DNA of 59,839 bases from Bacteroidota bacterium. GTDB lineage: Bacteria; Bacteroidota; Bacteroidia; Flavobacteriales; Flavobacteriaceae. Both the position numbers and the translations under genes were made by a program. Shown in pieces: positions 67-57,349 of the stretch (within the stretch, counting starts at the first letter, position 1; the number at the start of each line of letters is the position of its first letter). The DNA lies in assembly GCA_947450355.1 (NCBI GenBank), contig CANFVB010000002.1, positions 1 to 59,839 of the forward strand, given 5' to 3'. The notes beneath the pieces were generated by a model that saw only the letters and a list, made by a program, of their open reading frames with translations, was not told the origin of the DNA and searched no databases.

Positions 67-3000
67 ATGCGCAAACAATCTTGGCTCTTTTTATTGTTAT
101 TTTTCATCGGAATCACAACCGTTTCGGCTCAAAAATCCGCAATTTACACGCACGATTTAGAAGCGTTCAATAATGCACTTTCATTATATAATAATGGGCA
201 ATATTTATCTGCTCAGATTATTTTTGACAAAGTGAAATTAGAAAATAAAAGTAGTGAAGTGCAATCAGATTGTGCTTATTATAGTGCAAATTGTGCCATT
301 CGTCTCAATCAATCGAATGCAGATTTCTTGATGGAAAATTTTGTTTCTGATTACCCAACAAGTACCAAAAGAAACCAAGCTTACATTGAAGTTGCAGAAT
401 ATTATTTTGAACAAGGTAACTATCCAAAATCTCTAATTTGGTTTGATAAAGTAGATGAAAGTTCCTTGGATTCTGACGATATTGATAAATTTAATTTCCA
501 AAAAGGTTACGCTTTTTTTACTGCAAAAAACAAAATTGAAGCTACACCGTATTTTAATAAAGTGCTTAATTCACCAAATTATGGTTCGCAAGCCAAGTAT
601 TATTTAGGTTTTATGGCTTATGAAGGCGATGATTATAAAAATGCAACTAAATATTTTGACCAAGTTTCTGGCGAAGAAAAATACAAAGAAAAACTTTCTT
701 ATTTTCAAGCGGATATGAATTTCAAATTAGGAAATTTCCAAAAAGCAATTGATTTAGGTTTGGTTGCAATGGCAAAATCCAATGCTTTAGAGAAATCAGA
801 ATTGAATAAAATCATTGGCGAAAGCTATTTTAATTTGAATCAATACGAAAAGGCCATTCCTTTTTTGAAAGAATATAAAGGTAAAAAAGGAAAATGGAAC
901 AATACCGATTTTTACCAATTGGGATTTGCTTATTATCAACAAAATGATTTTGAAAATGCAATCACCCAATTCAATAAAATCATTGATGGCAAAGACTTTG
1001 TTGCGCAAAACGCCTATTATCATTTAGGTCAAAGTTATTTGAAAACCGATAAAAAACAACAAGCTTTGAATGCTTTTAAAAATGCATCTGAGATGGTATT
1101 TGATATAAAAATTCAAGAAGATGCCGCTTTAAATTATTCAAAATTAAGTTATGATATTGGAAATTCATATCAAAGTGTTCCAGATGTATTGTCCGCTTTT
1201 TTAGATAAATATCCTAATTCCCCAAGCAAAACAGATATTGAAACGTTATTGATAAATTCCTTTATTACATCAAAAAATTATAAAGGCGCATTAGAATTAT
1301 TAGAAAAAAATAAAAGTTTTGCTAACAAACAGGCGTATCAAAAAGTGACTTTTTATAGAGGTTTAGAATTATATACTGATGGAAATTACCAGGAAGCATT
1401 AGCAATGTTCAAGAAATCTATTGGTGAACAAAAAGACCCGAAATTTACCGCTCGTGCTACTTTTTGGAAAGGAGAAACAGAATTTGTTTTGGATAGTTTC
1501 AATGAATCATTATTGAGTTTCAAGCAATTTATAGGTTTTGCAGAAGCTAAAAACACTACCGAATTCAAAAATATAAATTACAATATTGCCTATTGCTATT
1601 TCAAATTAAAAGAATACGAACAAGCAGGAAATTTTTTCCAAGCTCAAATTGATGCTGTAAAAGACGATAAAATCAGATTGAACGATTCTTATTTGCGTTT
1701 GGGTGACAGCCGTTTTGTATCGACAAAGTATTGGCCAGCAATGGATGCGTATAATAAAGCGATTGATTTGAAAAGTATCGATGCCGATTATGCGGCTTTT
1801 CAAAAAGCAATTAGTTACGGATTTGTATCTAAAAATGATAAGAAAATTGAGGATTTGAATAAGTTAATTGCAACGTATTCAAAATCGCAATATCGTGACG
1901 ATGCCTTATTTGAATTGGGAAATACGTATGTTGCTGAAAAAAAATCGGATTTGGCAATTAAAACCTACGACCAATTGATAAGCGAATTTAAAAATGGTTC
2001 GTATGCTTCAAAAGCAATTTTGAGACAAGGATTAATTTATTATAATTCTGAAAAAGACGATTTGGCGATTGGAAAATTCAAGAAAGTGGCTGCTGAATAT
2101 CCTAGAACGCCAGAAGCTTTAGAAGCCGTTTCAACCGCCAGAATTATTTATGTAGATAATGGAAAAGTGGATGAATATGCGACTTGGGTGCGAACTTTGG
2201 ATTTTGTTTCTGTGACCGATGCAGAATTAGATAATGACACTTATGAAGCTGCTGAAAAACAATATTTACAGAATAATACCAAGCAATCTATTTCGGCATT
2301 TAGCAGTTATGTTTCAAAATTTCCTAATGGAAATCACGCTTTGAACGCTAATTTCTACTTGGCACAATCTTATTTTGCCGATGGATTAGAATCGAATGCA
2401 GTTGCCAATTATGACTTTGTAATTTCGAAACCAAGGAATGAATTTACGGAACAAGCCTTGGCAAGATTGGCTCAAATTCATACTAAATCAAATGATTTTG
2501 AGAAGTTGATTCCAATTTTAAAACGTTTAGAAACAGAAGCTGATTTTCCTCAAAACATCACATTTGCACAAGCCAATTTGATGAAAACGTATTACGAACA
2601 AAAGGATTATGTGAACGCCGTAGTTTATGCGGATAAGGTTTTGATTAACCCCAAAACAGATGATAAAGTAAAAAGTGACGCACAAATCATCGTAGCTCGT
2701 TCGGCTATAAATTCTAATGATGAACCTAAAGCACGTCTGGCTTACGCCAAATTATTAACACTCGCAAAAGGGGAATTGGCTGCTGAAGCGTTGTATTATG
2801 ATGCTTATTTCAAAAATATTGATGCGAAATTTGAAGAATCCAATACCGTAGTTCAAAAATTAACCAAGGATTATTCTGGCTATAAATATTTTGGTGCAAA
2901 AGGATTGGTCGTTATGGCAAAAAACTTTTATGGATTGAAAGACAGTTTTCAAGCGACGTATATTTTGGATAGTGTCATTAAGAATTTCACTGCATTTCCG

Positions 3001-3081
3001 GATGTTGTAGAAGAAGCACAAAAGGAATTGGATGTTATTAAAACCGAAGAAGCTAAGACGAATTCGTCTATAATTAAATAG
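67..3081 (+). CDS. Tetratricopeptide-repeat protein with signal peptide
   Basis: 1004-aa ORF, N-terminal signal peptide (MRKQSWLFLLLFFIGITTVSAQ), many TPR-like repeats. Confidence 0.9.
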   Translation: MRKQSWLFLLLFFIGITTVSAQKSAIYTHDLEAFNNALSLYNNGQYLSAQIIFDKVKLENKSSEVQSDCAYYSANCAIRLNQSNADFLMENFVSDYPTSTKRNQAYIEVAEYYFEQGNYPKSLIWFDKVDESSLDSDDIDKFNFQKGYAFFTAKNKIEATPYFNKVLNSPNYGSQAKYYLGFMAYEGDDYKNATKYFDQVSGEEKYKEKLSYFQADMNFKLGNFQKAIDLGLVAMAKSNALEKSELNKIIGESYFNLNQYEKAIPFLKEYKGKKGKWNNTDFYQLGFAYYQQNDFENAITQFNKIIDGKDFVAQNAYYHLGQSYLKTDKKQQALNAFKNASEMVFDIKIQEDAALNYSKLSYDIGNSYQSVPDVLSAFLDKYPNSPSKTDIETLLINSFITSKNYKGALELLEKNKSFANKQAYQKVTFYRGLELYTDGNYQEALAMFKKSIGEQKDPKFTARATFWKGETEFVLDSFNESLLSFKQFIGFAEAKNTTEFKNINYNIAYCYFKLKEYEQAGNFFQAQIDAVKDDKIRLNDSYLRLGDSRFVSTKYWPAMDAYNKAIDLKSIDADYAAFQKAISYGFVSKNDKKIEDLNKLIATYSKSQYRDDALFELGNTYVAEKKSDLAIKTYDQLISEFKNGSYASKAILRQGLIYYNSEKDDLAIGKFKKVAAEYPRTPEALEAVSTARIIYVDNGKVDEYATWVRTLDFVSVTDAELDNDTYEAAEKQYLQNNTKQSISAFSSYVSKFPNGNHALNANFYLAQSYFADGLESNAVANYDFVISKPRNEFTEQALARLAQIHTKSNDFEKLIPILKRLETEADFPQNITFAQANLMKTYYEQKDYVNAVVYADKVLINPKTDDKVKSDAQIIVARSAINSNDEPKARLAYAKLLTLAKGELAAEALYYDAYFKNIDAKFEESNTVVQKLTKDYSGYKYFGAKGLVVMAKNFYGLKDSFQATYILDSVIKNFTAFPDVVEEAQKELDVIKTEEAKTNSSIIK

Positions 3082-3164
3082 ACGAAAAGATAATAGACAG
3101 ATAGATAATAGACAGTTAGAAATTGAGAAAATGTTTTTTAATTTAAGGTAGATACAAATAAAAT

Positions 3165-3530
3165 ATGAGCGAATTTAAAAGACATAATTTTAAAAAACTA
3201 AAGATTTGGCAAATGGCAATGGAATTAGCAAAGGAAATTTTTAAGATATCAGCGAGTTTTCCAAGTTCAGAAAAATTTGGATTAGCGAGTCAAATGAATC
3301 GATGTTCTGTTTCTATGCCATCTAATATTGCTGAAGGTTCAAGCCGGACAAATAAATCTTTCAGTCATTTTATCGATATTTCATTAGGTTCGTCATTTGA
3401 ACTTCAAACGCAATTGATATTGGCAAATAGTCAAAAATACATAACGGATGAATCATCTCAATATATTGAGAATAAAATAGAAGAATTTCAAAAAGCAACA
3501 ATGTCATTTCAAAATACATTAAACAAATAA
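3165..3530 (+). CDS. Four-helix-bundle protein (S23 / 23S rRNA-IVP / Avd-like family), copy 1
   Basis: KIWQMAMELAKEIF...FPSSEKFGLASQMNRCSVSMPSNIAEGSSR motif typical of the family. Confidence 0.88.
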   Translation: MSEFKRHNFKKLKIWQMAMELAKEIFKISASFPSSEKFGLASQMNRCSVSMPSNIAEGSSRTNKSFSHFIDISLGSSFELQTQLILANSQKYITDESSQYIENKIEEFQKATMSFQNTLNK

Positions 3531-3533
3531 TTT

Positions 3534-5348
3534 ATGTCAAAAAAAACCATATTTACCAGTCCATTATCTCTTCGTCTATCATCTTTTAATCTTTCTCTAT
3601 TGAGTCTATCATCTCTTCGTCTATCATCTCTTCGTCTTCCTCTATTATCTTTTAGTCTCATTTTAATTTCTCAAATTGTTCTCGCACAAAAGAAAGATGA
3701 AAACATAGGGACTGAAGTTGTAAACGTGGTAAAACCATACACGCCAACAATTTCAGATGCTTTTAAAGTTAAGGAAACACCCGCTTTAGAGGATGAAGAC
3801 AATACTAAAAAGGAAGTGATTAAATATTCGATTTTTTCTTTTCCGGTGGCTTCTACTTTCACGCCTTCAAAAGGTAGGGCTGCAAATGTGGACAAATCAG
3901 AATCGGAGAAATTATTCAAAAATTACCTGACGTTGGGTTTTGGAAATTATACCACACTAAATGCGGAACTATTCGTGACAGAAAACATAAGCGATACAGA
4001 ATATGTAGGTGGAATGTTGCGCCATCTTTCGTCTCAAGGCGGAATAAAAGGCGTTGATTTGGATGATAAATTTTACACGACTTCTTTGGATTTAACGTAT
4101 GGAAATCAACAGAAAAATTTGACTTGGAATGCCGATTTAGGCTATCAAAACCAAGTGTATAATTGGTACGGTTTACCCGAGAATTTTTCTTCAACTATAA
4201 TTGACGGAATCAACCCACAGCATACGTTTCATAATTTTTATGCAGGTGCAAAATTCAGTTTAAATGATAGTTTTTTTAAGGAAGGAAGCGTAAAATACAA
4301 TCGCTTTTGGGATGCACGAGGTTCGTCTGAAAATAGATTTTATGTAAAACCGTCTTTTGAATTTGATGCATTTGATGAAAAAATTAAAACCAATTTTATA
4401 GTTGATTATTTAGGAGGAAGTTTTGAAAAAGACTTTTTTACAACGAATGCTATAAAATACGGATATACCAATTTTGGAGTTCATCCTAGTGTGGTAATCA
4501 ATAAAAATGATTGGTCTGTGAATGTTGGAGCAGCAGTTTTTTATAGTATTGACAATGAAAATAGTAAAAATAAATTGTTCGTTTATCCACAAATAAACGC
4601 ATCCTTGAAAGTAGTTGGTGATTTTATGATTTTCTACACAGGGGCAGAGGGAAGTTTGGATCAAAATTCTTATCGTGATTTCTCAAATGAAAATCCATAT
4701 ATTTCACCAACATTGGTGATTGCCCCAACCGACAAACAATACGATATTTTTGCTGGATTGAAAGGAAAATTAGCAAGTGCGGTGAGTTATAATATTCGAG
4801 GTTCATTTCAAAACGAGAAAAATAAAGCGTTATTTAAAAGCAATAACTTCACTGAAAATAGTGCCAATGAAGATTACGAATTCGGAAATTCTTTAGGAGT
4901 TGTATATGATGATATGAAAACGGTGCGTTTTTTCGGGGAATTAAATGCTGATTTTTCAAAGAATGTATCCTTCGGAATTAACGGAACTTTTAGCAGTTAT
5001 TCAACTCATTTTCAGGAAGAAGCTTGGAATTTGCCTGCAATAAAATTGGGTTCTAATTTAAATGTAATAATAACTAAAAAGTGGTATGCTGGTGCAAATG
5101 TGTTCTTCGTTGGTGAAAGAAAAGATTTGCAAGTAAACACGGATATTTTGCCTTTAATTGCGCCATCCCCAATTACGATTTCCAGTTATTTCGATGCAAA
5201 TTTAAACGTTGGATACAAACACAGCGAACGTTTAACAGGATTTTTGAAATTGAATAATATTGGAAATCAAGCTTATCAAAGATGGTTGAATTATCCAGTT
5301 CAAGGATTTCAAGTGATTTTAGGAGCGAGCTATAAGTTTGATTTTTAA
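3534..5348 (+). CDS. TonB-dependent receptor-like / outer-membrane beta-barrel protein
   Basis: 604-aa ORF, signal peptide ending LAQ, aromatic beta-strand pattern, C-terminal F (ASYKFDF); N-terminus contains a repeat-encoded S/L/R-rich stretch. Confidence 0.8.
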   Translation: MSKKTIFTSPLSLRLSSFNLSLLSLSSLRLSSLRLPLLSFSLILISQIVLAQKKDENIGTEVVNVVKPYTPTISDAFKVKETPALEDEDNTKKEVIKYSIFSFPVASTFTPSKGRAANVDKSESEKLFKNYLTLGFGNYTTLNAELFVTENISDTEYVGGMLRHLSSQGGIKGVDLDDKFYTTSLDLTYGNQQKNLTWNADLGYQNQVYNWYGLPENFSSTIIDGINPQHTFHNFYAGAKFSLNDSFFKEGSVKYNRFWDARGSSENRFYVKPSFEFDAFDEKIKTNFIVDYLGGSFEKDFFTTNAIKYGYTNFGVHPSVVINKNDWSVNVGAAVFYSIDNENSKNKLFVYPQINASLKVVGDFMIFYTGAEGSLDQNSYRDFSNENPYISPTLVIAPTDKQYDIFAGLKGKLASAVSYNIRGSFQNEKNKALFKSNNFTENSANEDYEFGNSLGVVYDDMKTVRFFGELNADFSKNVSFGINGTFSSYSTHFQEEAWNLPAIKLGSNLNVIITKKWYAGANVFFVGERKDLQVNTDILPLIAPSPITISSYFDANLNVGYKHSERLTGFLKLNNIGNQAYQRWLNYPVQGFQVILGASYKFDF

Positions 5349-24591: not shown

Positions 24592-24808
24592 TATCGTGTT
24601 TTAAACATTGGAAAATTAATCATTTATTTAATAAGAACATTATTTTTTTATAAAATTAGATTTATAAAATTAATTGATTAATTCTAAATCGTTTATAAAA
24701 CTAAAGCGGAACGGGTTATTTGTTAATTCGGTTATTCGGTATTGCGTGACGTTTTGTATTCGCAATTTTTCATTCTTGCGTATTTGTTATTTGTTATTTC
24801 ACATACAT

Positions 24809-24955
24809 AAAAAGGAATTTACTATGCGTAAAAAGGAATTTAACATGCGTAAAAAGGATTTCATGGTACGTCAAAAGGAATTTACCATGCGTCAAAAGGA
24901 ATTTACCATGCGTCAAAAGGATTTCATGGTACGTCAAAAGAATTTACAATGACAC
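24809..24955. repeat. Intergenic tandem array, seven 21-nt units in x-x-y-x-x-y-z order
   Basis: x = aaaaggaatttaccatgcgt(c), y = aaaaggatttcatggtacgt(c). Confidence 0.95.
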
Positions 24956-26274: not shown

Positions 26275-26973
26275 TTAAATTGCGTTCCAAATCACATCAT
26301 TTGGGGTAGGGGCAACAATTTCTATATTTTCTTTAGAAACAGGATGCACAAAAACTAATTTTCTGGCGTGAAGATGTATGCCGCCATCGGGATTACTCCT
26401 CTCAAAACCATATTTCAAATCTCCCTTTATCGGTGATCCAATTGCGGATAATTGTGCTCTAATTTGATGGTGTCTTCCTGTGTGAAGATTTATTTCTAAT
26501 GCAAAATAGTTTTGAAGTGTAGCAATAATTTTATAGTCTAAACTTGCCAATTTACTATCGGTAACCTCTTTAAGATGTGCTTTTGAAGTATTATTTTTCT
26601 CATTTCTTTTCAGAAAATGAACCAATTTATCTTCGGTATTTATTGGTTTGTTTTTGACAATTGCCCAATATGTTTTTTGCGTTTCTCGATTGCTAAAAAG
26701 TTCATTCATTCGGGTCAAAGCCTTACTGGTTCTTGCAAAAACTACAATTCCAGTTGTTGGTCGGTCCAAACGATGAACCACTCCAAGAAATACTTCGCCT
26801 GGTTTGTTATATTTAACTTTGATGTATTCTTTCACAACTTCAGACAATGGTTTGTCGCCCGTTTTGTCACCTTGCACAATATCTCCAACACGCTTATTAA
26901 TCACAATAATATGATTGTCTTCGTGAAGCACTTGCAGGTTATTTTTATCGGAAATTATTTTCAAAATAGACAA
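26275..26973 (-). CDS. RluA-family pseudouridine synthase
   Basis: VVHRLDRPTTGIVVFARTSKALTRMNELF..., LHTGRHHQIRAQLSAIGSPIKGD. Confidence 0.93.
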   Translation of the reverse strand: MSILKIISDKNNLQVLHEDNHIIVINKRVGDIVQGDKTGDKPLSEVVKEYIKVKYNKPGEVFLGVVHRLDRPTTGIVVFARTSKALTRMNELFSNRETQKTYWAIVKNKPINTEDKLVHFLKRNEKNNTSKAHLKEVTDSKLASLDYKIIATLQNYFALEINLHTGRHHQIRAQLSAIGSPIKGDLKYGFERSNPDGGIHLHARKLVFVHPVSKENIEIVAPTPNDVIWNAI

Positions 26974-26974
26974 A

Positions 26975-27004
26975 TTAGAATATTAGATTTATAGACTTCT
27001 TAGA
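26975..27004 (+). repeat. Left terminal inverted repeat flanking four-helix-bundle gene 2
   Basis: ttagaatattagatttatagacttcttaga, exact reverse complement at 27400-27429. Confidence 0.95.
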
Positions 27005-27005
27005 T

Positions 27006-27356
27006 TCAAATTAAATCAGCTCTGAATTTTGAAGTCATTTTTATTATTTCTTGTAATAAAGTATTTATTTTCAACGTGTTTTCGGATGTAATAAATCCCA
27101 AATCGAGTGCAATTAAAAGTTGAGTTTCGACTTCATAAGCTGAACCAATGGCAATTTCTAAAAATCGAGAAAAGTCTTTATTTGAATGTCTTGATGAGCC
27201 TTCTGCAATGTTTGATGGAATTGAAACCGATGCACGACGAAGCTGATTCGTTAATCCAAATTTTTCTTCAGTTGGAAAATTTGATGTTGCATTATAAATC
27301 TCAGAACAAAGAATTCTACTTTTTTTCCAAATCAATAATTCTTTAAACTGGTGCAT
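27006..27356 (-). CDS. Four-helix-bundle protein (S23 / Avd-like family), copy 2
   Basis: ELLIWKKSRILCSEIYNATSNFPTEEKFGLTNQLRRASVSIPSNIAEGSSR. Confidence 0.9.
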   Translation of the reverse strand: MHQFKELLIWKKSRILCSEIYNATSNFPTEEKFGLTNQLRRASVSIPSNIAEGSSRHSNKDFSRFLEIAIGSAYEVETQLLIALDLGFITSENTLKINTLLQEIIKMTSKFRADLI

Positions 27357-27399: not shown

Positions 27400-27429
27400 T
27401 CTAAGAAGTCTATAAATCTAATATTCTAA
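27400..27429 (-). repeat. Right terminal inverted repeat flanking four-helix-bundle gene 2
   Basis: tctaagaagtctataaatctaatattctaa; first part is repeated in tandem to about 27440. Confidence 0.95.
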
Positions 27430-27439
27430 GAAGTCTAAT

Positions 27440-28258
27440 TTAATATTGCTCATTCGCATTAGGAAAATCACTCGATTTTACATCTTTCACATATTGACCA
27501 ATTGCGGAAGTCATTTGTTCATATAAATTCAAATAGCGTCTCAAAAATCGTGGACTAAATTCGTTATTCATACCCAACATATCGTGAATGACAAGTACTT
27601 GACCATCAACTCCACCACCAGCACCAATTCCAATAACTGGTATCGAAATACTTTGTGCTACTTTTGCAGCCAAATGAGCAGGAATTTTTTCTAATACCAA
27701 TGCAAAACACCCAATTTTTTCAAGCATTTTAGCGTCTTGCATTAACTTTTCAGCTTCTTCCTCTTCTTTAGCACGAACGGTATAACTTCCAAATTTGTAT
27801 ATTGATTGCGGTGTTAAGCCTAAATGCCCCATTACAGGAATTCCAGCGTTTAATATTTTCTTTATTGAATCTTTAATTTCGCTGCCACCTTCTAATTTCA
27901 CTGCGTGTCCACCACTTTCTTTCATTATTCTAATTGAAGAACGCAAGGCTTCTTTTGGGTCTGATTGGTAGCTTCCAAAAGGTAAGTCAACCACAACCAA
28001 AGCTCTTTCGATGGCACGAACCACACTTGAGGCGTGATAAATCATTTGGTCTAATGTAATTGGTAATGTAGTTTCGTGACCCGCCATTACATTTGAAGCA
28101 GAATCTCCAACAAGAATTACGTCAATTCCTGCAGTATCAACAATTTTTGCCATAGAATAATCATAGGCTGTAAGCATTGAAATTTTTTCGCCATTGGCTT
28201 TCATCTCAATAAGTGACTTGGTAGTTATTCTTTTATAATCCTTTTTAGCTACTGACAT
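27440..28258 (-). CDS. panB: 3-methyl-2-oxobutanoate hydroxymethyltransferase
   Basis: [48 protein letters not shown]. Confidence 0.95.
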
Positions 28259-28487
28259 TATGACTTTGAATTATGGTTTATGTAAATAATTTAGGCAAAA
28301 ATAATCAAATTTGTTTGATTAAATAGATAATTATGCGGAGGTTTATTTTAGATTTATGATTTCAGATTTTAGATTTTTAATCTGTGTAAAACATTCATAT
28401 TAGTCGAAAAACCTTTAAACAATTAACCGATTCAACGATTAAACTTTTACTTTTAAACGATTAACCGATTAAACTTTTACCTTTTCC

Positions 28488-46749: not shown

Positions 46750-47110
46750 GAAAAATTAGTCGAAAGTCTTATTTCCAAACATTCATAATTCATAATTTAT
46801 AATTCATAACTCATAATTAATTTACCTTTGCGTAATCCTTAGCGCTCTTTGCGGTTAAGAAAAAGATAACAGACTAAAAAAATACGAGATAATTCGTGAC
46901 CCGAGACCAGAGGTCGAACAGACGAAGTAAATTCCTGGCAGGAAAAGTTTAAATTTAGATTCGGATTATACTTATTTCCAAATATTCATAATTTATAACT
47001 TATAATTCATAACTTATAATTATACCTTTGTGCCCCTTGTGTAAAACTTTGTGAACTTTGCGGTTAAAAAAAATCAGTCGAAAGACATAAAGTCTTAAAG
47101 CCGAACGAAC
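46750..47110. repeat. Composite degenerate intergenic repeats, two related copies around a unique core
   Basis: (tta)tttccaaa(c/t)attcataat...cataattcataac...acctttgyg...ctttgcggttaa at about 46768-46866 and 46971-47070. Confidence 0.8.
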
Positions 47111-49651: not shown

Positions 49652-49679
49652 ATGACACTATCCAAACTGCGGATATATT

Positions 49680-49847
49680 TATGCTTACTGCATTTGTAAT
49701 TATGCTTCCCGCATTTAGAATTATGCTTACCGCATTTAGAATTATGCTTACCGCATTTAAAATTAAACTTCCCGCATTTAAAATTAAACTTCCCGCATTT
49801 AGAATTATGCTTCCCGCATTTGTATTTATGCCTGTATGACTTATATT
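49680..49847. repeat. Intergenic tandem array, seven 21-nt units plus one degenerate unit
   Basis: tatgcttaccgcatttagaat unit with inner ATGC-ttacc-GCAT dyad. Confidence 0.95.
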
Positions 49848-52063: not shown

Positions 52064-53434
52064 TTAAAAATCTCTATTTATGTCAAAAGCTTCTAAATAA
52101 TCGGCTACACGTTTTACAAAACTTCCTCCAAGAGCACCATCAACAACTCGGTGATCGTAACTGTGAGATAAGAACATTTTGTTGCGGATACCAATGAAAT
52201 CGCCTTCTGGAGTTTCAATTACGGCAGGAACTTTACGAATTGCTCCAAGTGCTAAAATACCAACTTGTGGCTGATTGATGATTGGTGTTCCGAAAACACT
52301 ACCAAAAGTACCCACGTTTGTAACGGTATAAGTTCCGCCTTGTGTATCGTCTGGTTTTAATTTTCCGGCTTTTGCACGGTTTCCTAAATCGTTAACGGCT
52401 TTTGCCATTCCCACTAAATTCAACTGATCGGCATTTTTTATTACTGGAACAATCAAGTTTCCGTTTGGCAAAGAAGCTGCCATTCCAAGGTTTATATTTT
52501 TCTTTTTGATGATATAATCGCCATCAACTGAAATGTTCATTCCTGGGAAATCTTTCAATGCTTTGGCAACTGCTTCCATAAAAATTGGTGTGAAAGTAAG
52601 CTTCTCCCCTTCTCTTTTTTCAAAAGCATTTTTATTTTTCTCACGCCATTTCCAAATATTGGTAACATCCACTTCTATAAACGATTGCACGTGAGCAGAC
52701 GTGTTTATTGACGCCATCATATATCCAGAAATCAGCTTGCGCATTCTATCCATTTCCACAATTTCGTCACCATTGGAAAGCCCCCCAGCCCCCAAAGGGG
52801 GAGCGGGTTGTGGCTTATTTATAGTGGTATTTTGTTGGATAATTCCATTCGGAGTTTTTACTTCGTCTTGGATGACCCCCGATTTGCCTCCGCTTGGAAT
52901 TCCCCCTTTGGGGGCTAGGGGGCTTTTTATATAATTCAAAATATCTTCTTTTGTAACGCGTCCTTCTTTCCCAGAACCGTTTATAGATTCTAATTCGGAA
53001 ATTGAAATCCCTTCTTGTTTGGCAATATTTTTCACCAAAGGAGAAAAGAATTTATCGGAAAGCCCACCAGCCCCCGAAGGGGGTGTGGAAACAATATCAG
53101 TAGATTTTGCAATGCTACTTTCTATGCTTTTTACCGATTCAGAAATATTTAAGTTTACCTCGCTTTGAGCTCCCCCTTCGGGGGTTGGGGGGCTTTCAGT
53201 TTCTATAATTGCAATAGTTTGACCTACTTTTACAATATCATCAACATTGAAAAGTATTTCTGATAAAACTCCAGAAACTTCAGATGGGATTTCACTATCG
53301 ACTTTATCCGTAGCGATTTCTAACACGGCTTCGTCAATTTCGATTTTTTCACCTACTTTTTTCAACCAATTGGTAATTGTTGCTTCTGCAACGCTTTCTC
53401 CCATTTTTGGTAATTTCAATTCAAACTTTGCCAT
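52064..53434 (-). CDS. 2-oxoacid dehydrogenase E2 component (dihydrolipoyl acyltransferase)
   Basis: Lipoyl domain (EIATDKVDSEIPSEVSG), peripheral-subunit-binding domain, catalytic domain (SHSYDHRVVDGALGG). Confidence 0.95.
   Translation of the reverse strand: MAKFELKLPKMGESVAEATITNWLKKVGEKIEIDEAVLEIATDKVDSEIPSEVSGVLSEILFNVDDIVKVGQTIAIIETESPPTPEGGAQSEVNLNISESVKSIESSIAKSTDIVSTPPSGAGGLSDKFFSPLVKNIAKQEGISISELESINGSGKEGRVTKEDILNYIKSPLAPKGGIPSGGKSGVIQDEVKTPNGIIQQNTTINKPQPAPPLGAGGLSNGDEIVEMDRMRKLISGYMMASINTSAHVQSFIEVDVTNIWKWREKNKNAFEKREGEKLTFTPIFMEAVAKALKDFPGMNISVDGDYIIKKKNINLGMAASLPNGNLIVPVIKNADQLNLVGMAKAVNDLGNRAKAGKLKPDDTQGGTYTVTNVGTFGSVFGTPIINQPQVGILALGAIRKVPAVIETPEGDFIGIRNKMFLSHSYDHRVVDGALGGSFVKRVADYLEAFDINRDF
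52777..52804 (+). repeat. REP-like palindrome a (inside E2 gene)
   Basis: AAAGCCCCCCAGCCCCCAAAGGGGGAGC. Confidence 0.85.
52897..52926 (-). repeat. REP-like palindrome b (inverted relative to a)
   Basis: Reverse complement reads AAAAGCCCCCTAGCCCCCAAAGGGGGAATT. Confidence 0.85.
53059..53086 (+). repeat. REP-like palindrome c (inside E2 gene)
   Basis: AAAGCCCACCAGCCCCCGAAGGGGGTGT. Confidence 0.85.
53168..53196 (-). repeat. REP-like palindrome d (inverted relative to c)
   Basis: Reverse complement reads AAAGCCCCCCAACCCCCGAAGGGGGAGCT. Confidence 0.85.
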
Positions 53435-54973: not shown

Positions 54974-57349
54974 ATGATTTCAAAGAAAATTATTACTGTG
55001 TTGACGCTGCTTTTTTTGGTGGTTTTTAGCAGTTTCTCCCAAGAAAAAGTTACGCTTAGCGGTGTTGTTTCTGCTGCAAATAGTAATGAAACTATAATTG
55101 GCGTAAATGTGGTTATCCCTGCAATACCAGCCTATACCACTACCAATGAATACGGTTTTTATTCCATAACTATTCCAAAAGGAAGCTATAAAATCGCTGT
55201 TAGTTCAATCGGTTTTCAAACCAAAGAAGTTACGCTGGATTTAACCAAAAACACCAATTACAATATTTCATTATCCGAAAGCGGTGAAGAATTACAAGAG
55301 GTTATCATCACCGAAAAAAAGACTACAAACACGCAAAAAGCAGAAATGAGTGTGAATAAACTCTCGATTGCAACCATAAAAAAAATGCCTGTAGTTTTGG
55401 GTGAAGTAGATGTTTTAAAATCAATTTTATTGCTTCCAGGGGTAACAAATGCTGGTGAAGGCGCATCTGGATTCAATGTTCGAGGCGGTGGCGCAGACCA
55501 AAATTTAATACTTTTGGACGAAGCTACGATTTTTAATTCGTCACACGTATTTGGATTTTTCTCGGTTTTCAATCCTGATGCCATTAAAGATTTAAAATTA
55601 TATAAAGGAGGAATTCCTTCTCGTTTTGGCGGAAGAGCAAGTTCGGTTTTAGAAATTTATCAAAAAGATGGGAACTCGAAAAATTATCATATCAATGGTG
55701 GAATTGGATTAATTTCAAGTCGCCTTTTAGTTGAAGGACCACTTGTTAAAGACAAAGGTTCGTTCATAATTGCGGGGCGAGGTTCTTATGCGCATTTGTT
55801 TTTAAAACTTACAGATAACAAAAATTCCGCTTATTTTTATGATTTAAATACCAAACTGAATTACAAACTCAACAAAAATAATAGTTTATTTGTATCTGGA
55901 TATTTTGGTCGTGACGTGTTTAATCTAGCAGGAAGTTTTACAAATATTTATGGAAATGCAACTTCAAATTTGAGATGGAATCACTTATTTTCCGACAAAT
56001 TATTCTCTAATCTTTCCTTGATTTATAGTGATTATTATTATGGTTTACAATTGGATTTTGTAGGTTTCAAATACGATTCAGGAATTAAAAACTATAATTT
56101 GAAATATGATTTTAAAAACTATGTTTCCGATAAAATCAAATTGAATTATGGAATCAATGCTATTTACTACGATTTCAATCCTGGTTCCATAAGCCCGACA
56201 ACTGCTGAATCTGGGATTAATTACAAGCAATTAGAAAAAAAATATGCGTTTGAACCTTCCATTTATCTTGAAGCGGAACATAAAATTACCGATAAATTAG
56301 AATTAATGTACGGTTTGCGATACAGTCAATTTTATAGATTGGGTGCGTCAACAGTAAATATTTATGAAAATAATGAAGCCGTAACGTTCAATAATGATTT
56401 GAAAATTTATGAAAAAGGAATCCCGATTGGAACTAAATATTACAACAATAACAAGGTAATTGCTTCATTCGATAATTTTGAGCCACGGTTTTCAGCTTCC
56501 TATTCATTGGATAAAAATCAATCTATAAAAGCGAGTTACAACCGAATGACGCAGTATTTACAATTGATTTCCAATACATCCTCACCTACTCCATTGGATG
56601 TTTGGACGCCAAGTGATTCTTTTATTAAACCACAAATTGCCGATCAAGTTGCGTTAGGATATTTCAAGAATTTCAATGATGATGCGTATTCTCTTGAAGT
56701 TGAAACATTCTACAAAAAAGTAAAAAACAGAATTAATTATATTGACGGAGCCAATTTAATTGCCAACGAAGCATTGGAACAAATAATTTTAAACGGACAA
56801 TTGAGAGCCTACGGATTAGAGGTTTTGTTGCGAAAAAATACAGGTAAACTAAACGGCTGGATTGCCTACACACTTTCTCGTTCCGAACAACAAACTCCTG
56901 GAAGAACTGCCAATGAAATAGGGATAAATAATGGAAATTGGTATAAATCCACCTATGATAAATTACACAATATTGCCGTTACAGGAAGTTACAATTGGAA
57001 TGAAAAATGGTCGTTTGGCGCTAATTTCACCTTACAAACTGGCCAACCCGTAACGTATCCAAACGGGCAATACCAATACCAAGGAATTACCGTTCCGAGT
57101 TACGGCTTACGCAATGAAAATAAATTGCCAACCTACCACCATTTAGATATTTCGGCAACTTACACTCCAAAACCTCTGAAGAAAAAAGGGTGGCAAGGAG
57201 AATGGGTTTTCAGTGTTTACAACCTCTACAACCGACAAAATGCAGCTTCTATAAGTTTCCGACAAAATCAAATATCAGGAAGTAATGAGGCGGTTCGGTT
57301 TTCAGTTTTTGGTGTTGTTCCCGCAGTGAGTTATAATTTTAAATTCTAA
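54974..57349 (+). CDS. TonB-dependent receptor with carboxypeptidase-like regulatory domain
   Basis: Signal peptide, VTLSGVVSAANSNETIIGVNVVIP, plug GFNVRGGGADQNLILLDEATIFNSSHVFGFFSVFN. Confidence 0.93.
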   Translation: MISKKIITVLTLLFLVVFSSFSQEKVTLSGVVSAANSNETIIGVNVVIPAIPAYTTTNEYGFYSITIPKGSYKIAVSSIGFQTKEVTLDLTKNTNYNISLSESGEELQEVIITEKKTTNTQKAEMSVNKLSIATIKKMPVVLGEVDVLKSILLLPGVTNAGEGASGFNVRGGGADQNLILLDEATIFNSSHVFGFFSVFNPDAIKDLKLYKGGIPSRFGGRASSVLEIYQKDGNSKNYHINGGIGLISSRLLVEGPLVKDKGSFIIAGRGSYAHLFLKLTDNKNSAYFYDLNTKLNYKLNKNNSLFVSGYFGRDVFNLAGSFTNIYGNATSNLRWNHLFSDKLFSNLSLIYSDYYYGLQLDFVGFKYDSGIKNYNLKYDFKNYVSDKIKLNYGINAIYYDFNPGSISPTTAESGINYKQLEKKYAFEPSIYLEAEHKITDKLELMYGLRYSQFYRLGASTVNIYENNEAVTFNNDLKIYEKGIPIGTKYYNNNKVIASFDNFEPRFSASYSLDKNQSIKASYNRMTQYLQLISNTSSPTPLDVWTPSDSFIKPQIADQVALGYFKNFNDDAYSLEVETFYKKVKNRINYIDGANLIANEALEQIILNGQLRAYGLEVLLRKNTGKLNGWIAYTLSRSEQQTPGRTANEIGINNGNWYKSTYDKLHNIAVTGSYNWNEKWSFGANFTLQTGQPVTYPNGQYQYQGITVPSYGLRNENKLPTYHHLDISATYTPKPLKKKGWQGEWVFSVYNLYNRQNAASISFRQNQISGSNEAVRFSVFGVVPAVSYNFKF

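Follow-up and report, generated by a model that had tools for sequence, protein, structure and literature searches.

Why is a small four-helix-bundle (FHB) gene, lodged between the genes of a TPR-repeat protein and a putative beta-barrel protein, bracketed by inverted repeats, and do those repeats belong to the site or to the gene that they enclose? The FHB gene (3165-3530, + strand, 121 amino acids; ORF call and profile searches with PF05635/TIGR02436) lies in a 59,839-nucleotide stretch of DNA that we call the window. The upstream TPR-repeat protein gene (67-3081, + strand, 1004 amino acids) was identified by ORF call and profile search; the downstream gene (3534-5348, + strand, 604 amino acids) was identified by ORF call, and its product, which the earlier note called a beta-barrel, had no Pfam or NCBIfam match in profile searches. 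The left arm (3077-3120, + strand) is made of tandem 7-8-nt words of the ATAGACGA/AGATAAT type that pair with the right array, and the right arm (3558-3660, + strand; inverted-repeat, word and tandem-repeat searches) is an array of the reverse-complement word (GTCTATCATCTCTTC). Tandem Repeats Finder places the arrays at 3077-3120 and 3558-3659 with a period of 15 nt (7+8) in both, and left array, FHB, and inverted right array together span some 480-500 bp.

The earlier note had seen inverted arms around this gene, and we find the same: ATAGACGAAAAGATAAT (3078-3094) and ATTATCTCTTCGTCTAT (3563-3579) are complementary at 16 of 17 positions, and longer pairings between the same arms include a 30-nt pair at 83% and a 34-nt pair (3080-3113 with 3604-3637) at 82%. 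The word GTCTATYATCTVTTCGTCTA has 5 matches in the window at up to 3 mismatches, all of them inside the arms of this FHB, against a chance expectation of 0.01. The arms also intrude on both neighboring genes: the TAG stop codon of the TPR gene (3079-3081) sits within the word that opens the left arm, and the last codons of that gene (3063-3074, TTCGTCTATAAT) carry the word reversed, in right-arm orientation; at the other end the right arm encodes residues 9-42 of the downstream protein, including SLRLSSFNLSLLSLSSLRLSSLRLPLLSFS, in keeping with the note, which had assigned this array to the signal peptide of the gene that follows. The end of the TPR gene (3063-3074) and the start of the left arm make a small palindrome, and L020 has a similar sequence.

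A second FHB gene in the window (27006-27356, - strand, 116 amino acids) lies between a ketopantoate hydroxymethyltransferase gene and a pseudouridine synthase gene. In the sense of the FHB, its left arm (27400-27441, - strand) reaches the end of the former and its right arm (26963-27004, - strand) overlaps the start of the latter; the two arms form a 42-nt pair that is 90% complementary. At the same score, spaced inverted repeats in the 60-kb window are confined to the two FHB loci and a few exceptions (self-complementary terminator-like hairpins, a GC-rich CCCCCTTTGGGGG element, and one 20-bp match pair at 57257/58126), and inverted repeats made of AT-rich word arrays occur solely at the two FHB loci. 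Several other repeats are present. Free-standing period-7 arrays at 46781-46818 (ATTCATA) and 46984-47028 (ATAATTCATAACTT) resemble the arms of the L006 FHB of the same genome; a GC-rich inverted element, AAAGCCCCCCAGCCCCCAAAGGGGG, is repeated at 52776-53197; and two arrays with a 21-bp period (24796-24951, TAAAAAGGAATTTACCATGCG; 49679-49831, TTATGCTTCCCGCATTTAGAA) bear no obvious relation to FHB words.

The FHB protein matches PF05635 ("23S rRNA intervening sequence protein") in Pfam at 119.2 bits (cut-off 33.8) and TIGR02436 in NCBIfam at 103.8 bits (cut-off 24), and does not reach the Avd models (PF22296, 34.8 versus 40 bits; NF033474, 29.6 versus 80 bits). Profile searches of both collections returned only four-helix-bundle families, and no catalytic domain able to mobilise anything. 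S23p/IVS four-helix-bundle proteins have no known function (PMC4990558). Relatives in the PDB are 2GSC and 2RLD; for XCC0516, the protein of 2GSC, a homopentameric assembly of four-helix bundles is reported, as cited in PMC10053308 and PMC4990558. The source assembly holds six FHB copies, with word arrays visible beside all six, and FHB-type genes are present in 90 of 118 sampled genomes of the phylum. Substitution rates for four same-site FHB orthologues (dN 0.05-0.15, dS 0.70-1.67) indicate that the gene is under purifying selection. Three public MAGs titled Rhizobium, Rhodobacteraceae, and Bifidobacterium (L182, L209, L242) carry FHBs 61-81% identical to that of the window, and are probably mislabelled or contaminated bins.

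Inverted arms are a general property of FHB genes. We aligned the 300 bp upstream of each of 97 same-genus FHB genes, taken from the best-scoring profile hits, to the reverse complement of the 300 bp downstream, and counted arms at a score of at least 28. That threshold was reached by 72% of the 97 genes, as compared with 4% for flanks paired across different FHBs and 3% of 421 control positions, so that the shared layout with locus-matched inverted repeats proposed in the note was borne out; within genomes the difference was 70 of 97 for arms in cis versus 3 of 192 (1.6%) for mismatched flanks. The note's further claim that the repeats are tied to the FHB family is likewise supported. Values were lower in a phylum sample of 26 genes (42% with arms versus 0.9% mismatched); arms thus went undetected for about 28% of the genus genes and 58% of the phylum sample. 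The arms have a median length of 34 nt, their autocorrelation peaks at lags 7 and 8 (0.50 and 0.42, versus about 0.27), and G exceeds C in 56 of 70 left arms. With neighboring genes taken as open frames of at least 70 codons, an upstream frame lies on the same strand as the FHB in all 97 cases, and a downstream frame with an ATG within 200 nt in at least 89. The left arm begins a median of 0 nt after the upstream stop codon and the right arm ends a median of 5 nt before the downstream ATG, whereas the right arm of the window copy lies just inside the ORF. Many unrelated gene pairs host the 97 FHBs, 81 of which belong to recurrent sites with conserved neighbors. At L127:1030-1286 an inverted pair of word arrays stands between two ORFs with no gene inside, like a miniature version of the cassette.

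To whom, then, do the repeats belong? The FHB tree clusters by site (15 changes versus a shuffled mean of 60), which rules out a fresh independent insertion at each site. Ownership by the site is ruled out in turn by site 3, where the downstream protein begins MKTAYIVKAYRTAVGKAP and two FHB clades carry two different words, and by relocated copies. Among FHB pairs at different sites in different genomes, the word is common to all 6 pairs of at least 80% identity and to 86% of the 22 pairs at 70-80% identity, in both classes in the same orientation only, and to 1-5% of pairs below 60% identity; the pairs that share a word are not independent, and amount to about six separate relocations (s16/s3, s18+s20/s2, s21/s13, s24/s25, s11/s15, and s19/s1). 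Over all pairs from different sites, a Mantel test gave no significant correlation between the similarity of words and that of proteins (rho 0.065, with 88 of 1000 shuffles as high); because words saturate, the coupling is limited to pairs above about 60-70% identity, and the binned comparison is the informative one. Thus close FHBs keep the word even when they lie elsewhere, and distant ones may differ in it even when they share a site, so the word is a property of the FHB lineage, and the earlier view of the repeats as locus-specific gives way to one in which they are lineage-specific.

The relocated copies also delimit what moves. In L002/L118 and L105/L095 homology stops within the arms, and arm, FHB, and arm are therefore delimited as a unit; L115/L117 is no clean relocation, as similarity continues through both flanks. 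The comparisons show that arm-FHB-arm is a single unit whose word belongs to the FHB lineage, and that this unit is inherited vertically at many sites and occasionally turns up at a new one with its word carried along. In public genomes, window-type FHBs share the TPR/beta-barrel junction in L185-L187; in F. frigoritolerans, F. succinicans, Kaistella, Chryseobacterium, and Epilithonimonas they separate a thiolase-like gene from an acyl-CoA-dehydrogenase-like one, and in L190 the FHB precedes a dehydrogenase-like gene, these neighbors being named from sequence rather than by profile search; most of the public copies have a TAGACGAATAGATAATAGA word. FHBs about 60% identical to that of the window have the related words AGAGAATAGAAAATAGA and AAGAAGCAAGAAGC, and further clades have others (TTGTATA, GTATTAAG). 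Two FHB copies on contig 17 of G040 (L040, L067) are 97% identical, 3 kb apart, and share a word; their sequences point to a recent local relocation or duplication.

The two arms change in concert. Over the range of FHB identity from above 0.9 down to 0.5-0.6, the score between arms of different copies at the same site (trans) drops from 40 to 19, which is background, while the score between the arms of one copy (cis) holds at 31-41; among independent nearest pairs cis exceeds trans in 26 of 42 (p=0.008). The alignments show the arms preserving their mutual match even as the word changes in the course of FHB descent. Any one of three processes would suffice to maintain the match in cis: copying from arm to arm, a single recogniser of the two, or selection on their pairing. 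L250 and L255 have an unrelated CCGCTGCGCTG-like insert in both arms, mirrored, as if copied into both.

At the site of the window copy, the element has a visible effect on a neighboring protein. In beta-barrel orthologues that lack the element, the signal peptide ahead of QKKDEN is about 22-23 residues long, whereas carriers have about 35 (L020, L023), 43 (L010), or 51 residues (window); in the window, the right arm thus extends a signal peptide of about 23 residues to one of 51 and provides the bulk of it. G035, in which the beta-barrel protein is 72% identical, has neither FHB nor repeat segment. The case that the note had named as evidence against its own reading, an orthologue without the FHB but with the repeat-coded N-terminus, exists: sister L008 (G014) has no FHB and keeps a shorter repeat-coded N-terminal segment, which differs by about 19 residues between the window genome and this 95%-identical sister. 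It does not follow that the repeat is independent of the gene, because FHB and arms occur together at this site in L010, L020, and L023, from more distant genomes, and in the public records L185-L187; we prefer, as the simplest reading, that the sister lineage lost its FHB and that the translated arm would be what was left behind. A sequence similar to the AAAGCCCCCCAGCCCCCAAAGGGGG element occupies the FHB-less gap of L008; in L021 and L028 this gap contains inverted word arrays but no FHB.

Words are also found away from the genes. A free-standing array in the window (28411-28485, no strand assigned) consists of CGATTAAACGATT/CGATTCAACGATT, the word of the L003 FHB element of the same genome; that word has 44 genomic copies, most of them not near an FHB, where its reversed pattern has 0, and the word of the window FHB has 25 in its own genome at up to 2 mismatches, against 3. 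A search of seven free-standing-array loci found no FHB remnants. Among 61 genomes, the four with the window FHB clade have 25, 21, 9, and 6 copies of the word and the other 57 a mean of 1.2 and a median of 0 (p=3e-5, a value that overstates independence because the four genomes are related). Among genomes with no window-type FHB, G014 has 33 copies, G056 has 8, and G030 has 6; the outlier G014 is the sister that lacks the FHB at this site, and since its assembly is 88% complete an FHB may lie elsewhere. By these counts, genomes with the matching FHB are richer in free-standing arrays of its word.

We think it fairly probable, the biochemical step being the conjectural one, that the element is an intercistronic cassette resembling a 23S rRNA intervening sequence (IVS), whose oligomeric FHB protein recognises the cassette's own ends. 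The cassette spans the interval from the stop codon of one gene to the start codon of the next, both co-oriented; the FHB protein, which probably assembles into a toroidal pentamer as does its relative XCC0516, would recognise the word arrays at the two cassette ends; once transcribed, the arms would pair as a stem around the FHB frame, as in 23S rRNA IVSs, a predicted fold that might then be processed; free-standing arrays would be by-products or satellites of the cassette; and here the right arm has landed in the next reading frame and become the bulk of a signal peptide. We advance more tentatively, and would not be surprised to see fail, the wider proposal that FHBs are sequence-specific recognition proteins, with a word of its own for every lineage, and that copying tied to them writes matched arrays at the cassette ends and scatters free ones, which would make the cassette a selfish element of co-evolving protein and word without a transposase, and IVSs and TAACTGA arrays special cases of it. 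The coupling of word and FHB could be explained by joint descent alone. The favored reading is also weakened by the lack of any FHB domain that could mobilise the cassette, by the wobble counts given below, by the share of FHB genes whose arms went undetected, and by the word copies in G014, G056, and G030.

The strongest competitor, doubtful in our judgment, treats the cassette purely as RNA: the arms would form a double-stranded stem cut by RNase III to excise the FHB frame, and the word would be irrelevant and unbound by protein. The sense orientation among co-oriented genes and a predicted panhandle stem surrounding the entire FHB frame (z = -2.1) agree with this, as does the RNase III-excised Coxiella IVS, whose protein belongs to this family, whose length of 428-444 nt is similar, and whose ends form a 28-bp stem (PMC4990558). 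In the arms, however, G-U pairs do not outnumber A-C mismatches (the genus set has 47 of the former and 122 of the latter, a second set 51 and 53), and selection on sense-strand RNA pairing is therefore not seen; nor does excision alone account for the often one-sided free arrays that accumulate in genomes with a matching FHB. Somewhat less likely again is a regulatory role, in which the FHB would bind word arrays as operator-like sites and control the flanking genes and itself, at translation or transcription. Right arms do stop a few nucleotides ahead of the next start codon, MacGregor proposed translational regulation for TAACTGA arrays just 5′ of starts (PMC4679880), and the FHB is under purifying selection, but FHBs sit between many unrelated gene pairs, the same junction is FHB-free in related genomes, the arms are inverted rather than one operator, and the right arm of the window copy lies in a coding region. 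It is improbable that the arms are neutral minisatellites, functionless slippage repeats of the spacer copied along with FHB genes, since, for all that array length changes fast (about 19 residues between window genome and sister) and free-standing arrays are common in the source genome, neutral drift predicts loss of the cis match at the between-species rate and would not explain its upkeep while trans is lost, and the inverted layout and position around the FHB recur.

The cassette that we favor can be set beside four known systems. i) The 23S IVS of Coxiella burnetii is excised by RNase III; it ends in inverted repeats that form a 28-bp stem, and it contains an S23p ORF with tandem GACAGAT heptamers directly 5′ of it (PMC4990558). 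Like the IVSs of Coxiella, Leptospira, and Brucella, the cassette encodes an S23p-family protein, and it shares a size of about 430-500 bp and terminal inverted repeats, with a stem of about 30 bp enclosing the ORF (here a predicted fold); unlike them it lies between two protein-coding genes rather than in the 23S rRNA gene (helix 25 or 45), and we therefore speak of an IVS-like element and not of an IVS. It differs further in having several copies per genome, tandem word arrays in both arms, a word common to close FHB relatives at different sites, and an FHB under purifying selection; for the S23p of Coxiella, by contrast, reductive evolution is described (PMC4990558). ii) REPIN/RAYT systems pair a protein gene and its lineage-specific flanking repeats with dispersed non-autonomous copies (PMC3116915). 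Copies of the FHB's flanking repeat are likewise dispersed in the same genome, but the FHB is no REP-associated tyrosine transposase, no catalytic activity is known for it, and its words are tandem 7-8-mers where REP sequences are palindromic; REPIN/RAYT is, by analogy, the closest counterpart in logic, with an unrelated protein. iii) The Avd protein of diversity-generating retroelements is a related four-helix bundle (the below-cut-off PF22296 and NF033474 models), but the FHB's neighbors are a TPR protein and a beta-barrel-like protein, with no reverse transcriptase. iv) TAACTGA direct repeats, taken up below, are tandem intergenic 7-mers, mostly right before start codons and in one orientation, that also occur in Bacteroidetes (PMC4679880). 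No description of FHB-cognate word arrays was found among the open-licence papers searched. The coupling of gene to word gives S23p/IVS proteins a candidate ligand, offers an origin for orphan heptamer arrays, and connects rRNA intervening sequences with intercistronic elements; the window copy adds a signal peptide made from an element's end.

The arms of the FHB family resemble TAACTGA arrays as tandem 7-8-mers ending just ahead of start codons; neither a protein partner nor paired inverted arms are described for the latter (PMC4679880). TAACTGA arrays occurred in 26 of 396 genomes scanned, and among the loci fetched from these an FHB adjoins the array in the expected orientation in 2 of the 26 (L266, L282), which is suggestive of a general link; L282 has arms on both sides of the FHB, and L266 a right array only.
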